A DNA stretch of 64,000 nucleotides from Fodinibius saliphilus (GTDB taxonomy: Bacteria; Bacteroidota; Rhodothermia; Balneolales; Balneolaceae): NCBI RefSeq assembly GCF_005869845.1, contig NZ_VAWF01000001.1:124001-188000 (forward strand), in the 5' to 3' direction. Both the position numbers and the translations under genes were made by a program. Of the stretch, positions 761 through 54,241 are shown in pieces (the stretch's first letter is position 1; each line of letters begins with the position of its first letter). A model generated the notes under the pieces. That model saw only the letters and a program-made list of their open reading frames with translations, was not told the origin of the DNA and searched no databases.

Positions 761-1417
761 ATGCCTCATAAATTTTTTTTACTGGTACTTCTATTTCTGT
801 TTTTGGGAATGGCCCAGATGGGTCATTCGCAGGATAGGAATACTCCTAGCCCTAAAATAGCTTTCTTGAAATCGGTAGCTGTACCTGGTTGGGGACATCA
901 CTATGTCGACAAATCCAGCTGGGAACGCGGTAAGTATCACTTGGGGGCCGAGATAGTATTGGTGTTGGGATATGTCGGTCTTTCGATACATTCTAATAAT
1001 ATTCAACAGCATTGGTATACCTATGGTCGTTCGCAGGCTGGTGTGACGATAAAGGGTCGAAGCAGAGAATTTCAGCTGGCGGTAGGTGACTTCAATAATC
1101 TTTCTGCTTACAATAATTACCAGGAGCGAAGTAGAAATTGGGATAAGTTGCTGGAGGATAAGCCCGAAAACCGGTGGCAATGGGATAGCAAGAAGAAGAG
1201 AGCCGAATACAGAGATTTGAGAACAGATTTCGAACAGATTGATCAACAGCTGCCGGCCCTGTTGGGAATGATGGTTCTCAACAGATTAATCAGTGGTATT
1301 AGCGCGTATAATCGTGCAAAAAAGCGTGAAGAAAACACTTCTTTGGCAACTGATATTTCAGTTGCTCCCTATCGAATGAACCAAGGCATCGTTGCCAATT
1401 TGAATATCCGTTTCTGA
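761..1417 (+). CDS. Secreted or envelope protein of unknown function (DUF5683-like)
   Basis: 218 residues. The N-terminus is a clear signal peptide (hydrophobic run LLVLLFLFLGMAQMG, then HSQ). After it comes KSVAVPGWGHHYVDKSSWERGKY, a pattern reminiscent of the small Bacteroidota envelope proteins annotated DUF5683, which start with a Pro-Gly-x-Gly turn and contain membrane-spanning stretches; one follows here (LGAEIVLVLGYVGLSI) and another near residue 165. The middle is charged and rich in Trp, Asn and Glu. The gene starts one base after ccmF and its stop overlaps the truA start (TGATG), so the three genes are probably one transcript. Function unknown; the DUF assignment is by pattern only. 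Confidence 0.6.
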   Translation: MPHKFFLLVLLFLFLGMAQMGHSQDRNTPSPKIAFLKSVAVPGWGHHYVDKSSWERGKYHLGAEIVLVLGYVGLSIHSNNIQQHWYTYGRSQAGVTIKGRSREFQLAVGDFNNLSAYNNYQERSRNWDKLLEDKPENRWQWDSKKKRAEYRDLRTDFEQIDQQLPALLGMMVLNRLISGISAYNRAKKREENTSLATDISVAPYRMNQGIVANLNIRF

Positions 1418-49023: not shown

Positions 49024-49680
49024 CTAAAATGTAGATGCTTTGGACTTATCCCAAGACAAATGTTTTTTGAACCAAGACAGGGTAATGTTTGCTGCTTCAT
49101 TTAGCTTATCAGCTTCCTCAAACATATGAGAAGCTCCGGGCACAATTGCTAGTTGTTTGTTTGGTTTAAGGTACTTAATAGCATTTTGATTGATGTTTAC
49201 CGTTTTAAAGTCCATTTCACCGGTAAGTAACAGGACCGGACATTTTATCTTTACCAGGTTTTTACTACAGAGGTTTAGACGACCACTTAGCGAGACAATT
49301 GTTTTTATTATTGACCCCAGTTCTGATGCTGCATTTACGGCTGCGGCAGAACCTGTACCGCTGCCAAAATAAGCTAAGTTAAGTGATCTGTATTCAGAGT
49401 GGCTACTCAGCCAGTTCGTTGAAGTGACTAATCCCTTGCTCAATAAATCAATGTCTTTATATTTTATCGGCAGTTCATCATGCTCATCAAGAAGATCTAA
49501 TACCAGGGTGCCAAATCCAGCTTGCTGAAATTCAAGAGCAAGCCTATGTTCGTGTACCATCAGTTTGGATAAACCATAACCATGCGAAAAAATAATCAGG
49601 CTGTTTGCTTGTACCGGAAGAGTTATTTTTCCTTTTACATGAAATCCATTAAATGGGAGTTGAACACTGATTTGGTACAT
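49024..49680 (-). CDS. Alpha/beta-hydrolase fold protein lacking the nucleophile serine
   Basis: 218 residues, dienelactone-hydrolase-like. Oxyanion region FSHGYGLSKL; nucleophile elbow reads FGSGTGS, where the central residue of G-x-S-x-G (position 108) is Gly; a Ser lies one place earlier (107). The Asp (LTGEMDFKT, Asp158) and His (PGASHMFEE, His185) are in place. The protein is either inactive, uses Ser107, or has a binding role. Monocistronic. Confidence 0.75.
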   Translation of the reverse strand: MYQISVQLPFNGFHVKGKITLPVQANSLIIFSHGYGLSKLMVHEHRLALEFQQAGFGTLVLDLLDEHDELPIKYKDIDLLSKGLVTSTNWLSSHSEYRSLNLAYFGSGTGSAAAVNAASELGSIIKTIVSLSGRLNLCSKNLVKIKCPVLLLTGEMDFKTVNINQNAIKYLKPNKQLAIVPGASHMFEEADKLNEAANITLSWFKKHLSWDKSKASTF

Positions 49681-50028
49681 ATATAACCTCTCTTTTTGAT
49701 TTGTACATGAAATACAAATTAGGTCCTAAATATTCATTTGCTGTAGGTATTTCGATAAAATACATGTAGGGAAAATTTGATGAAAATCGAATAAAGTCGG
49801 GAAAATGTAATAAATTAAGCTACACACTCACTTAGATAGGTCTATAATATTAACACTTCTTGATAAGTTGAATTTGCTGAGTTATTTCTTGCAGGTATAG
49901 AAAGACAGCCACATAACAATATGGTGAAAACCCCTACATTTATTTTATGGGTTTCTAGCATTTCTCACATATCACTTTGTATTATATTCCATAAATAATG
50001 AAAGAGGAATAAAAGGGAGGGCGATAAA
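49681..50028. other. Divergent intergenic region
   Basis: 350 AT-rich bases between the hydrolase and the small Cys protein gene. A strong SD (AAAGGGAGGG) precedes the latter. An inverted repeat AAACCC...GGGTTT lies near 49930-49953. Nothing else recognised. Confidence 0.4.
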
Positions 50029-50244
50029 ATGAGTTCTTATTACATAAAAAAATATGGCGTGCATGAACTTCACCAATCTAACTGTGTATGGTTACCCATC
50101 AGAAAAGGAATGGTTAAACTAGGAGAATTTGATAGTGCTTTGGAAGCATTAAAAAAAGCAAGAGTATTGTATGATGAAGTAAACCCGTGTTCTACCTGCT
50201 GTAGTATTGGAAAAAAACGAAGTAATATTATGAGTGTAGATTGA
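50029..50244 (+). CDS. Small cysteine-containing protein, possible metal-binding
   Basis: 71 residues. Pattern HQSNCVWLP, KLGEFDSALEALKKAR and C-terminal NPCSTCCS: one Cys before a Leu-Pro pair, an alpha helix, and a CxxCC group. This matches a common Bacteroidota/Cytophaga small-protein type (C-x-x-L-P ... L-G-x-F ... C-x-x-C) of unknown function, probably zinc binding. It has a good ribosome binding site. Its stop is only 10 bases from the U-tract of the convergent RNA element. Confidence 0.6.
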   Translation: MSSYYIKKYGVHELHQSNCVWLPIRKGMVKLGEFDSALEALKKARVLYDEVNPCSTCCSIGKKRSNIMSVD

Positions 50245-50254
50245 AAGGGGATAT

Positions 50255-50353
50255 AAAAAAAGCCAGCAGTTTCCTTGTGCCGGCTTCAGCCGGTTCAAGT
50301 TATGGAGGTATAATCTCAGTCTTACAATGCAAGACACCCTCAACTGCTGGCTT
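50255..50353 (-). ncRNA. TPP-riboswitch-like RNA with altered P4-L5 arm; P1 is also a terminator
   Basis: Read on the minus strand (5' at 50353). P1: AGCCAGCAGTT pairs with AACTGCTGGCT (50342-50352 with 50261-50271), directly followed by seven T. P2: GAGG (50338-50341) with CCTC (50305-50308). P3: GTCTT/AAGAC. Thi box: CTGAGA at 50314-50319 in CTGAGATTATACC, the most conserved TPP-sensor sequence. P4: CTTG/CAAG, then P5 CCGGC/GCCGG with loop TGAA. The canonical J4/5 and L5 bases (TGAT, TAAT, GCG) are missing. So the pyrimidine-binding half is conserved and the pyrophosphate half changed. No gene follows on this strand within 570 bases. Either a decaying or a variant element. Confidence 0.6.
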
Positions 50354-50384
50354 CGATTGCCGTAACTTTTCAGATGCCGGCAAA

Positions 50385-50445
50385 AAAGACCGTTGCACAC
50401 TCCTTGATTATCCTGGTTGAGAAATCACAAGGAGAAGTCCACGGT
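50385..50445 (-). terminator. Long hairpin with U-tract upstream of the TPP-like RNA
   Basis: On the minus strand GACCGT ... ACGGTC (50440-50445 with 50391-50396) encloses CTCCTTG / CAAGGAG (50429-50435 with 50404... region), and the outer stem is followed by TTTTTT. Resembles a terminator with an internal loop, placed 32 bases upstream of the TPP-like element. If it ends a transcript, that element must have its own promoter. Confidence 0.45.
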
Positions 50446-51106
50446 CACTAATTTAGACTTGCTAATAGAAGTACCGTAGTACTACCACAAGCTGTGCAAA
50501 TATCATTATGTCAACAGGTTTTAGATTTAGTAGTAATATAAGTATAGCGTATCGATCTATTTGTAGTGTGGCTTACCAAGCAAAATGTAACGTTTCCACC
50601 TACAGATACTGAAGTTTACCCCTGGATTGGATGTAGTAGTAATTGTAACGTTCTAGAATACATTTTTTTCAATTAAATTGGAGGTTATTGGATTCATTTT
50701 ATAGATCAATCTTTTTTTCTCCTGCTTTGTTAAAAATGATTTTGATCTCATCACTTCGAATATGGACAGATTGAAATACTGGAGACACCTAGATAATTTC
50801 ATTCCCGGATTTAGCGCCTCGAGCATAGGGATGGATTATTTTAACGACTTCGTCCGTAACTTTTTCACTACACGCTCCTACTAATATCGCCAAGTCCGAA
50901 AACCGTTCAGAGATGCCTGAGATAGCTGGGATCAGGGACTAATTGCTCTTACATCTATAAGTGTCATACAGCAGAATTCTTTTTTTGACCATTAACAACT
51001 TTTTTGCTTTTGGGTTGCGAGTAAATACCTAAAATTCATTCATAAGAGTTACCTTTTAATTAGCCTTATCAGGTATTGGAAACCTGAAATATTTTAGCAT
51101 GAGTAA
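50446..51106. other. Gene-poor region upstream of the cus genes
   Basis: Contains the decayed minus-strand frame at 50699-50939. Otherwise nothing recognised. Low-complexity T-runs occur at 50663 and 50708. Confidence 0.4.
50699..50939 (-). pseudogene. Decayed coding remnant with an internal stop
   Basis: Minus-strand frame of 78 codons with coding-like composition: LIPAISGISERFSDLAILVG, then EVVKIIHPYARGAKSGNEII, a TAG, and VSPVFQSVHIRSDEIKIIF. It ends in KKIDL and TAA. A stop (TAG) precedes it too. No family could be assigned. A single TAG in an otherwise coherent protein is typical of a recent pseudogene. Confidence 0.3.
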
Positions 51107-54100
51107 TTAATTACTGTTCTTTCTGGTTGCCTTTGCCAATTCTTTCACTTCACGACTTTTCCAGAGATAGTAAACAACGGGCAGAACTACCAGGCTGAGC
51201 AGGGTCGCAGATATCATTCCGCCTACCATTGGGGCTGCAATACGTTTCATTACGGTAGCCCCGGTTCCGGTACCCCACATAATGGGTAGCAGACCGGCTA
51301 TAATAGCGCAAACCGTCATAAAAATGGGACGTATTCGTTGAGCAGAACCTGCCATGATGGCTTTCTTTAGATCATCCAAAGAATTCATCTTATCATGATA
51401 TTTTCGCTCGTTATAGGCGTTATCTAGGTAGGTGAGCATTATAACGCCGATTTCAGCGGCCACGCCAGCCAGTGCGATGGCTCCAACACCAACAGCTACA
51501 CTCAGGTTATAGCCCAACAGGTACAGCAGCCAAAATGAGCCTGCCAGTGAAAAGGGCAGCGTAAGGATTACGATAAGGCTTTGCTGCAGGTTTTTAAAGT
51601 TGAAGTAGAGCAGTAAAAAGATAATTAGCAGGGTAATGGGTACCACTATCTGCAGGCGTTTTTTAGCCCGTTCCATATATTCATACTGACCGCTCCAGTT
51701 TAGGCTGTATCCTGCAGGAAGGTCAATCTCTTCTGCAACAGTTTGGCGTGCGCGGTTGACATAGGAGCCAATATCAGAGGTGGTAAGATCTACATAGATC
51801 CAGCTCGAATAGCGGGCATTCTCAGTTTTGATAACCGGCGCGCCTTTATTAATGCTAAGATCTGCGACATATGAGAGTGGAATTTGTGCGCCTGAGGGAG
51901 TGGGGATCAACACGCGTTTTAGGTCAGAAATATTTTCACGCTGCTCGCGTGCGTAGCGTACATTGACTGGGTACCGTTCTAAGCCCTCCACAGTTTGTGT
52001 AACATTCATCCCACCAATAGCCGATTGAATGACATCCTGAACATCGCCGGTAGTTAGTCCATAACGGGCAGCCTCTTTGCGGTTGATATCAAAATCCAGG
52101 TAGTTACCGCCAGTTGTTTTGTCTGCGAAGACACTTAAGGTGCCATCTACGCCGCGGGTTATAGAAGCGATATCTTGGCTTAACTTGGAAAGTTCGTCTA
52201 GGTTTGGCCCCGTAACTTTTATGCCGATGGGTGTTTTAATACCAGTAGAAAGCATATCAATACGCGTTTTAATCGGCATAGTCCAGGCATTAGTGAGACC
52301 CGGAATCTGTATGGCATTATTCATCTCTTGCTTTAGCTTTTCCATCGTCATACCATCACGCCACTGATCTTTGGGCTTGAGCTGAATAATAGTTTCAAAC
52401 ATCGAAAGCGGTGCTGGATCAGTCGAGGTTTGAGCGCGTCCCGATTTGCCGAATACAGTTTCTACTTCGGGAAAGCTGGCAATGATTTTATCGGTCTGTT
52501 GCAGCAGCTCTCGGGCTTTTGTGATGCTGATGCCAGGATCGGTGGTGGGCATATAGAGAAGGTCTCCTTCATTGATGGAGGGCATAAATTCGGAGCCCAG
52601 CTGTTTCAGTGGGATAATAGAAATAATCAATATCACAAGCGAAGCGATAATGGTGCTCCATTTAAAGCGCAATACAAAGTTGATGACCGGGCGGTAGATC
52701 CAAATTAAAAAGCGGTTAACCGGATTTTTGTGCTCCGGCTTGATATGTCCGCGAATAAGAAAGCCCATGAGAACAGGCACCAGGGTAATTGATAACAGGG
52801 CAGCGGCTGCCATGGCATAAGTTTTGGTGAAGGCCAGGGGCTTAAAGAGGCGCCCTTCCTGTCCCTGTAGGGCAAAAATGGGTAGGAAGGAAACAGTAAT
52901 AATAAGCAGGGAGAAAAAGAGGGCTGGGCCTACTTCTTTGGAAGCATCGACAATAATACGCCAATGGTCTTTTTTGTTTTTATCTCTTTCAAGATGTTTA
53001 TGCGCATTTTCGACCATCACAATGGCGGCATCTACCATCGCTCCAATAGCTATGGCAATTCCACTGAGCGACATAATATTGGCGTTAATTCCCTGGAAAT
53101 ACATCACTAGGAAGGCTATTAAAATTCCGATGGGCAGGCTCACAATAGCAACGAGAGCGCTTCGAAAGTGGAGCAGAAAGATCATAACGATCAGTGCCAC
53201 TACAATGCTTTCCTCTATAAGTTTATGCTTCAGAAAGCTAATAGCACGACTGATCAGGCTGGATCGATCATAGGCTGTTTTAATGGTTACACCCTCGGGG
53301 AGTCCGCTTTCCAGTTCTTTTAGCTTCTTTTTGACTTTGTTAATGGTCTCCAGGGCATTTTCGCCATAACGCATAACCACCACCCCACCAATAGTCTCTC
53401 CTTTCCCATTCCAATCTACTACACCTCTGCGCAGGTCCGGGCCCAAGTGTACATCCGCTACATTTTTTATCAGGATGGGCGTACCATTAGCATCACTTCC
53501 TATGGGCACGTTCTCAACATCGGCTACAGTTTTGATATATCCTTTTCCCCGGACCATAAACTCCGTTTCACTCATCTCTACCAGTCGTCCGCCTACATCA
53601 TTATTACTACGTTTAATGGCTCTTTTAACTTTTGACAGCGGCATATTATAGGCCAGCAGTTTATCGGGGTCTACATCTACCTGGTACTGTTTGACGTGTC
53701 CGCCAACACTGGCTACCTCGGCTACTCCATCCACACTTAACAGCTCGTATTTTAAGAACCAATCTTGTATGGATCGCAGTTCCTGCAGATTATGCTTGTC
53801 TCCACCGTCTAAAACGTATTCATAGACCCAGCCAACCCCGGTGGCATCCGGTCCCAGGGTAGGCGTGACGCCTTCCGGGAGATTGTTTCCGGCGGTATTT
53901 AGGTATTCGAGCACCCGACTGCGGGCCCAGTATATGTCGGTATTATCCTCAAAGATGATATAGATAAAAGAGAGTCCGAAGAAGGAATAACCGCGAACTA
54001 CCTTTGATTTGGGAACCGACATCATGGTAGTGGTCAGAGGATAGGTAACCTGATCTTCTACGACCTGTGGTGCCTGGCCCGGGTACTTCGTAAATACGAT

Positions 54101-54241
54101 GACCTGCACATCACTGAGATCGGGAATCGCATCCACCGGTGTTTGGTACATTACGTAGGTACCGCCGGCCAGTATCAATACGCTGGTGATAAGCACCATA
54201 ATGCGATTATTAACGGAAAGTTCAATTATTTTTTGTAGCAT
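51107..54241 (-). CDS. cusA: Copper/silver RND permease CusA
   Basis: 1044 residues. Copper-pump features: three methionines in the CusA pattern (GDLLYMPTTDPG, DPAPLSMFETIIQL, RIDMLSTGIKTPIGIKV), and TM4 AIGAMVDAAIVMVENAHKHL. The N-terminus has DAIPDLSDVQVIVFTKYPGQAP. Full length, 12 membrane helices. Exports Cu(I)/Ag(I) through CusB and the TolC-type channel. Last gene of its operon, 57 bases after cusB. Confidence 0.95.
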   Translation of the reverse strand: MLQKIIELSVNNRIMVLITSVLILAGGTYVMYQTPVDAIPDLSDVQVIVFTKYPGQAPQVVEDQVTYPLTTTMMSVPKSKVVRGYSFFGLSFIYIIFEDNTDIYWARSRVLEYLNTAGNNLPEGVTPTLGPDATGVGWVYEYVLDGGDKHNLQELRSIQDWFLKYELLSVDGVAEVASVGGHVKQYQVDVDPDKLLAYNMPLSKVKRAIKRSNNDVGGRLVEMSETEFMVRGKGYIKTVADVENVPIGSDANGTPILIKNVADVHLGPDLRRGVVDWNGKGETIGGVVVMRYGENALETINKVKKKLKELESGLPEGVTIKTAYDRSSLISRAISFLKHKLIEESIVVALIVMIFLLHFRSALVAIVSLPIGILIAFLVMYFQGINANIMSLSGIAIAIGAMVDAAIVMVENAHKHLERDKNKKDHWRIIVDASKEVGPALFFSLLIITVSFLPIFALQGQEGRLFKPLAFTKTYAMAAAALLSITLVPVLMGFLIRGHIKPEHKNPVNRFLIWIYRPVINFVLRFKWSTIIASLVILIISIIPLKQLGSEFMPSINEGDLLYMPTTDPGISITKARELLQQTDKIIASFPEVETVFGKSGRAQTSTDPAPLSMFETIIQLKPKDQWRDGMTMEKLKQEMNNAIQIPGLTNAWTMPIKTRIDMLSTGIKTPIGIKVTGPNLDELSKLSQDIASITRGVDGTLSVFADKTTGGNYLDFDINRKEAARYGLTTGDVQDVIQSAIGGMNVTQTVEGLERYPVNVRYAREQRENISDLKRVLIPTPSGAQIPLSYVADLSINKGAPVIKTENARYSSWIYVDLTTSDIGSYVNRARQTVAEEIDLPAGYSLNWSGQYEYMERAKKRLQIVVPITLLIIFLLLYFNFKNLQQSLIVILTLPFSLAGSFWLLYLLGYNLSVAVGVGAIALAGVAAEIGVIMLTYLDNAYNERKYHDKMNSLDDLKKAIMAGSAQRIRPIFMTVCAIIAGLLPIMWGTGTGATVMKRIAAPMVGGMISATLLSLVVLPVVYYLWKSREVKELAKATRKNSN

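Follow-up and report, generated by a model that had tools for sequence, protein, structure and literature searches.

The TPP-aptamer-like element on the minus strand of the window (the whole stretch of 64,000 nt analyzed here) is on balance best read as the 3′ module of a small RNA gene that stands alone and spans about 270 nt, from approximately 50527 to 50255, and this module is a TPP aptamer in most of the copies in which it is linked to the RNA. Comparison of the related loci shows a constant order of putative promoter, core RNA, spacer, aptamer and terminator with no gene set up behind it, and the copies appear either to end after the core with a U-tract of their own or to run on into a TPP aptamer. 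The original prediction was confined to the element and overlooked that it is located behind a predicted conserved RNA with a conserved promoter (Table 1).

A covariance search of the minus strand with RF00059, as proposed in that prediction, resulted in a match at 50255–50351 with 60.5 bits, which is above the gathering score of 54.3. A 103-nt stretch containing the element folds with z = −5.8, and none of 200 shuffles was equally stable. Match and fold agree in the P1–P5 architecture and confirm the presence of intact P1, P2 and P3 helices and of the thi box CTGAGATTATACC, as had been claimed. P1 indeed runs directly into seven T, but it comprises 12 bp (13 with a G-U pair) instead of the 11 bp given before. 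The description of a P4/P5 arm devoid of the TAAT and GCG consensus bases was also correct: the arm reads CTTG-AA-CCGGC-TGAA-GCCGG-CA-CAAG, with TGAA in place of the usual TAAT in L5 and GCA in place of the usual GCG. As described, no thiamine gene follows and a convergent gene faces the element, namely a 71-aa ORF, behind which a hydrolase gene is located. KorB and NifJ are encoded in the 64-kb window (Pfam TPP_enzyme_C and POR_N), but no observation points to a connection between them and the element. In total, four RF00059 matches were found in the source genome, one ahead of genes with AIRS and Phos_pyr_kin domains, one ahead of a TonB-receptor-like gene and two as orphans, namely the window element and another one at C1:1036444.

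Table 1. Features of the predicted small RNA gene and its surroundings in the window.
Feature	Positions	Strand	Basis
TPP-aptamer-like module (RF00059)	50255..50353	−	covariance model 60.5 bits; fold z −5.8
P1 3′ arm (50260–50271) running into seven T (50255–50261), predicted terminator	50255..50271	−	fold and sequence
Remodelled pyrophosphate arm P4/P5; G78 = A, position 79 = C, can pair with G60	50274..50299	−	fold, alignment
thi box / J3-2 motif CTGAGA, present	50314..50319	−	RF00059 match and sequence
P1, 5′ arm	50342..50353	−	fold and sequence
Spacer with small predicted hairpin TTGCCG...CGGCAA	50357..50383	−	whole-transcript fold
Six T after core; possible first terminator with GACCGT/ACGGTC, exclusive with the junction	50382..50387	−	energies
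Predicted core RNA: four-way junction closed by P1, with arms P2 (loop of the UACG type), P3 and P4, and pseudoknot	50388..50500	−	pair counts, models R1/R2
5′ leader with TTGACATAnTGA; transcription start guessed near 50527	50501..50533	−	comparison by eye
Putative promoter: boxes TGGAAACGTTACA (50586–50598) and ACTACA (50562–50567), −10 box TTATATTA (50534–50541)	50534..50598	−	spacing and matrix
Convergent ORF, 71 aa, no Pfam match; 10 bases from the element	50029..50244	+	ORF list, Pfam
Weak match to the promoter type of the window copy, before the hydrolase gene	49715..49777	−	score 11.6; suggestive only
Dienelactone-hydrolase-like gene, about 575 nt beyond the element	49024..49680	−	ORF list, Pfam

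The conserved DNA upstream of the element was seen on lining up the orphan TPP elements of relatives. The core encoded there has a length of 113 nt and ends 34 nt upstream of the TPP element in the window, and its pseudoknot is formed by the P3 loop ACCG and the 3′ tail CGGT after P1. Spacers between core and TPP module measure 26–66 nt in 16 copies. The window core reached 104.4 bits with model R1 and 95.4 bits with model R2 and ranks third among 81 copies by model score, the copy being part of both training sets.

In a plain MAFFT alignment of 16 copies, 29 of 35 pairs were changed on both sides and none of 500 shuffles reached any of five measures; the structure had been drawn from the same sequences, which favors it over the slid controls. 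For 38 copies the covariation was 0.608 vs. 0.226 in shuffled alignments and the pseudoknot was paired to 89.5%, with covariation in three of its four pairs, and for all 81 copies 89.3% of the cells were paired, changes on both sides were present in 30 of 31 pairs and the covariation amounted to 0.669 vs. 0.241 (shuffled) and at most 0.131 (slid), both alignments being fitted to the model and thereby favoring the structure. The lowest-energy fold of the isolated window core is a hairpin that uses both pseudoknot strands and not the junction (−34.9 vs. −34.7 kcal/mol for the junction with P1 forced, the pseudoknot not being counted). When 16 sequences were folded singly, P1 was closed in 12 of them, as judged by eye. 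Since energy alone does not favor the junction in the window copy, the case for it rests on the covariation.

By sequence, the core RNA is a candidate family without an Rfam match that has been found so far in one bacterial family. No Rfam family covers it in the 62 of 68 loci scanned, the remaining six (L005, L044, L047, L056, L057, L065) having been searched for RF00059 only. An overlap with mir-204 was discarded as chance level (18.2 bits vs. a cut-off of 48.4 bits), as were microRNA, snoRNA and Esr41 matches, and a small ORF in the leader was rejected by eye. No literature on the core RNA or on Fodinibius transcriptomes was found in the open-licence part of PMC, and the available part of PMC12452182 contains no occurrence of “Balneol-” or “Bacteroidota”.

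The 81 core copies are distributed over 49 genomes from 13 genera, all of one bacterial family that includes the genus Fodinibius itself; two genomes with weak matches, G074 (E 0.006) and G108 (E 0.004), are omitted from these counts. Model R1 matched 24 of 58 relatives, of which 23 were strong matches within this family, and several of the matched copies are without a TPP element. The 24th match (G052, from another family) was rejected, as its E-value of 0.058 corresponds to chance level and it was absent among the R2 matches at E 0.01. With model R2, 51 of 128 genomes of the order (49 strongly), 50 of 244 genomes of the class and 27 of 395 genomes of the phylum were matched, those in class and phylum being all members of the same family; as only 9–29 candidates per genome were scored, this does not prove absence outside the family. 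Within the genus, one of 12 genomes (G007) had no core copy in the R1 and R2 searches. A pattern scan of named genomes matched Fodinibius sediminis DSM 21194, Aliifodinibius salipaludis WN023 and Fodinibius halophilus 2W32 as well as two uncultured Aliifodinibius. NCBI assigns Fodinibius to the Balneolaceae in the Balneolota, and the genome searches may use other limits for the family.

Two or three core copies lie close together at L115 (4002–4921), L123, L113, L129, L147, L160, L162 and L071, and at L071 and L160 each of them has its own TPP module. At L139 a cobalamin riboswitch (1160–1359, minus strand; 113.4 bits) was detected about 140 nt downstream of a TPP-less copy on the same strand; it probably belongs to the next gene.

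A TPP module is located at most about 90 nt downstream of the core in 30 of the 81 copies, leaving 51 without one. RF00059 matches account for 28 of these linked modules, 12 at or above gathering and the rest with 33.5–53.4 bits, and two (L108 and L117) were recognized by alignment only. The linked modules come from five genera, and 15 of the 16 copies in the genus of the source genome have one. A U-tract, defined as five or more consecutive T in the 14 nt following the core, occurs in 47 of 51 TPP-less vs. 7 of 30 linked copies (p = 2e-10, uncorrected for kinship). Because most linked copies no longer have the U-tract at which the others end, core RNA and aptamer probably form one transcript. 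The window copy belongs to the seven linked copies keeping the tract, and as six T follow its core, this copy could produce core and aptamer as two RNAs.

In the linked modules, P1, P2, P3 and P5 covary, with 20 of 29 pairs covarying in all (29 modules, the degenerate L121 being omitted); four measures were unmatched by 500 shuffles and the fifth was matched by one. P4 hardly varies and displays no appreciable covariation. Intact linked modules carry ACTTG...CGAAAGG or CGTAAGG (CGAAAGA in L172), and 12 thi elements chosen from the genus for comparison carry ACCTGA...GCGTAGGG or GCGGAGGG. Due to this difference in motifs, the linked modules are a class of their own.

The core copies can be divided by their upstream regions. 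DnaA-box-like words (TGTGGATAA or TGTGGAAA) occur within 110 nt upstream of 39 of the 81 copies, and none of these 39 has a TPP element, compared with 30 of the 42 others. By eye, the copies of the DnaA-box type have TTGACA and a TATGCTAAT-like promoter. A strict DnaA-box triple occurs three times in 38 genomes, each time ahead of a core RNA, and would possibly link expression of the RNA to growth or replication. Three DnaA-box-like repeats before the promoter were also observed in the TPP-less copies L110, L114, L116, L118, L119, L120, L123, L124 and L125. The second promoter type consists of boxes 17–18 nt apart with a −10 box 20 nt further on, and it was the best fit in 26 of 40 scored copies, which represent 40 of the 42 copies of the non-DnaA-box type. 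With a matrix built from 23 other copies, the window being left out, the promoter of the window copy scores 26.3, and 20 shuffles of the window contained no site of 15 or more. From the position of its −10 box, the transcription start near 50527 can be guessed.

Two other interpretations of the upstream region were rejected. The palindrome TGTAGG-N6-CCTACA was considered as an operator, and three sites were found in the window vs. 1.4 expected; the spaced boxes took its place. A sigma-54 promoter was rejected by eye, as the TTGACA/TTGCAC spacing varies. The site before the hydrolase gene reads CCCTACA-N17-CCTACA and is similar to the promoter of the RNA, and RNA and hydrolase gene possibly form one regulon; shuffled windows contain a mean of 0.45 promoter sites with a score of at least 11. 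Copies with the second promoter repeatedly have an MMPL exporter upstream and a cation ATPase in the vicinity, as seen by eye (Pfam for one each), and the window copy sits behind an AcrB-family exporter (51107–54241).

For the ligand pocket, the positions of the window arm were mapped by hand onto the numbering of E. coli thiM. Within the window module, G60 and C77 are present, G78 is replaced by A, and the fold pairs G60 with C79. According to the available parts of the sources, G60, C77 and G78 form the pyrophosphate and metal site of the TPP riboswitch (PMC3764141, PMC7824784) and L5 (U68–U71; TAAT) docks on P3 (PMC3764141). This site is thus incomplete in the window, where the TAAT of L5 is also replaced by TGAA. 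With G78 lost and G60 able to pair with C79, the window module is probably blind to TPP. All three bases are kept in 23 of the 30 linked modules, and the pocket is altered in seven (the window copy, L108, L040, L044, L117, L121 and L071:3231), both read by eye. L108, L040 and L044 combine A60 with U79, and L117 combines U60 with G79. The 60–79 pair of the altered modules (G-C, A-U or U-G) resembles a pocket closed into a helix; this is suggestive only and proves little, as six unaltered modules allow a G60-U79 pairing.

P1 runs straight into a U-tract in 5 of 7 altered vs. 3 of 23 intact modules (p = 0.007, uncorrected for kinship). The altered copies fall in few lineages, and on a tree of 28 of the 30 linked copies the intact and altered states need at least three changes. 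For 12 of 20 modules without a fused U-tract, a hairpin of −15 kcal/mol or less was predicted before a later T run, frequently behind a linker like TTAAGAGAGAG. Such a linker lies between P1 and the final terminator in L163, L152, L160 and L166, with variants of it after the TPP module in L172, L175, L121, L005 and L047, and several copies contain GAGAGAG words in their 5′ leader as well. In the source genome, the second copy (C1:1036444) keeps the pocket, and the cell therefore probably contains both a responsive and a non-responsive version.

A module that has changed its ligand and would sense thiamine, HMP or another thiamine relative without pyrophosphate is an unlikely explanation of the altered arm. 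In its favor, the replacement of G78 leaves the thi box, P2 and P3 intact, and the altered copies other than L121 keep their P4/P5 pairings by eye. However, the L5 TAAT that docks on P3 is TGAA in the window, the fusion of P1 to a U-tract in five of seven altered copies fits a loss of switching better, and the changed pocket is the sole positive evidence for a new ligand.

The genes behind the linked copies were compared for 29 of the 30 copies, of which the 25 with at least 700 nt behind them were used. For 17 of these, the next ORF of at least 90 aa is convergent; seven have it on the same strand and one has none. The window copy was counted as same-strand because its convergent ORF is shorter than 90 aa. 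The same-strand ORFs are 166–1513 nt away, except at L043, where the ORF follows after 26 nt and has no Pfam match. The convergent genes at the four loci tested encode a cation ATPase, a short-chain dehydrogenase, an AAA_11 helicase and a ZIP transporter. Pairing of the 3′ strand of P1 with the next terminator, as in an antiterminator, is not conserved (mean z −0.87; 15 of 28 loci), with z beyond −2 only in L136, where the hairpin is weak, L160:715 and L166, and with the arm set too far upstream in L045 and L050. TPP-controlled termination would accordingly be without its usual sign.

The frequent convergent ORFs are what an antisense-acting TPP riboswitch would predict, in which read-through at low TPP gives an antisense RNA to the convergent gene, comparable to what is reported for a SAM riboswitch at ubiG-mccBA and a cobalamin riboswitch at pocR. 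The window copy faces a convergent ORF as well, of 71 aa, and such a mode is already known, as described in the available part of PMC9943018. It is nevertheless improbable here: the convergent genes differ among the four loci, no antiterminator is conserved, TPP-less copies often lie the same way with respect to a convergent gene (by eye), and the conserved core is left unexplained.

The orphan position and the seven altered pockets could also indicate a decaying relic, i.e., a former thi-operon riboswitch stranded by a rearrangement, which had been among the options of the original prediction. For the element as a whole this is quite improbable, since four of the five aptamer helices covary across the 29 linked modules and the window core ranks third of 81; furthermore, the same arrangement behind the same RNA is found in five genera, and the linked modules form a class of their own. 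A relic may fit the ligand pocket, as G78 is lost in the window. That the element is an ordinary cis riboswitch for the hydrolase gene, the next larger same-strand ORF, is highly improbable, as a promoter-like site, a terminator and the convergent ORF intervene and same-strand next ORFs follow only 7 of 25 linked copies at very different distances.

Among the three options of the original prediction, a trans-acting, 3′-terminated RNA is the best fit by sequence: a conserved RNA gene is present with or without the element, and no gene is set up behind it. By sequence, it has a putative promoter and a predicted terminator of its own and lacks a cis gene, as expected of a trans-acting RNA. In the stand-alone RNA gene preferred here, core and module would be transcribed together, and the core would act in trans or as a scaffold. 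In most linked copies, binding of TPP would close P1 and thereby determine where the RNA ends, how stable it is or how available, whereby the RNA would report the thiamine status. As no classical antiterminator is conserved, the effect of TPP may be on stability or availability. The window module would serve as a structured terminator and 3′ cap that is constitutive and does not respond to TPP. Most relatives keep the thiamine-phosphate site, which suggests a free-standing RNA able to sense vitamin B1.

More tentatively, these RNAs may represent an undescribed small-RNA class of the Balneolaceae, folded as a four-way junction with pseudoknot and present in two forms, one with a DnaA-box promoter and its own U-tract and one with the second promoter, in which the terminator was replaced by a TPP aptamer, resulting in a free-standing trans-acting B1 sensor that became a fixed terminator in some lineages on loss of its pyrophosphate site. 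If this is true, gain and loss of ligand control could be followed on one RNA. Riboswitches are nearly always taken for cis switches ahead of a gene, and here an aptamer for a central coenzyme is appended to a predicted independent RNA gene in 30 of 81 members with no gene set up behind it. The altered pockets would form a natural gradation between a ligand sensor and a plain terminator, and the aptamer as a domain of a trans RNA is testable in culturable halophiles, e.g., Fodinibius sediminis DSM 21194.

Compared with known systems, the window element shares with the TPP riboswitch RF00059 the P1–P5 architecture, the thi box and a score above gathering, but it has no thiamine gene, lies 3′ of a folded RNA, continues a long P1 into a U-tract and changes two conserved contacts (G78 and the L5 TAAT). 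It is therefore a member of RF00059 by score but not a cis regulator of thiamine genes. In its topology, the SAM-IV riboswitch combines a four-way junction with a pseudoknot that involves the tail behind P1, and the core RNA resembles it in this layout. Unlike SAM-IV, there is no Rfam SAM match in the 62 of 68 loci scanned, and many core copies are terminated by a U-tract of their own and have no gene set up behind.

The HMP-PP riboswitch (thiS motif) likewise shares a stem between aptamer and terminator and belongs to the thiamine pathway, and it sometimes occurs in tandem with TPP riboswitches, then following them, and is tied to HET-P genes (PMC6478431, available part). Its fold differs from that of the window element; TPP was the only Rfam match at gathering in the stretch, those below gathering being at chance level, and no HET-P gene is next to it. 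Antisense-acting riboswitches also include orphan elements facing the 3′ end of a convergent gene, and the TPP row in a table of this source reads 9,766, 83 and 1.00 (PMC9943018, available part). They differ from the present case, in which there is no constant convergent gene and a conserved RNA is located upstream.

In the trans-acting riboswitch RNAs SreA, Rli55 and EutX, the effector part works by base pairing to an mRNA or by protein binding. As in the RNAs described in the available part of PMC7266159, a ligand-binding aptamer would be contained in an RNA able to act away from its own locus. Here, in contrast, the aptamer forms the 3′ module of a predicted four-way-junction RNA that is separately conserved.
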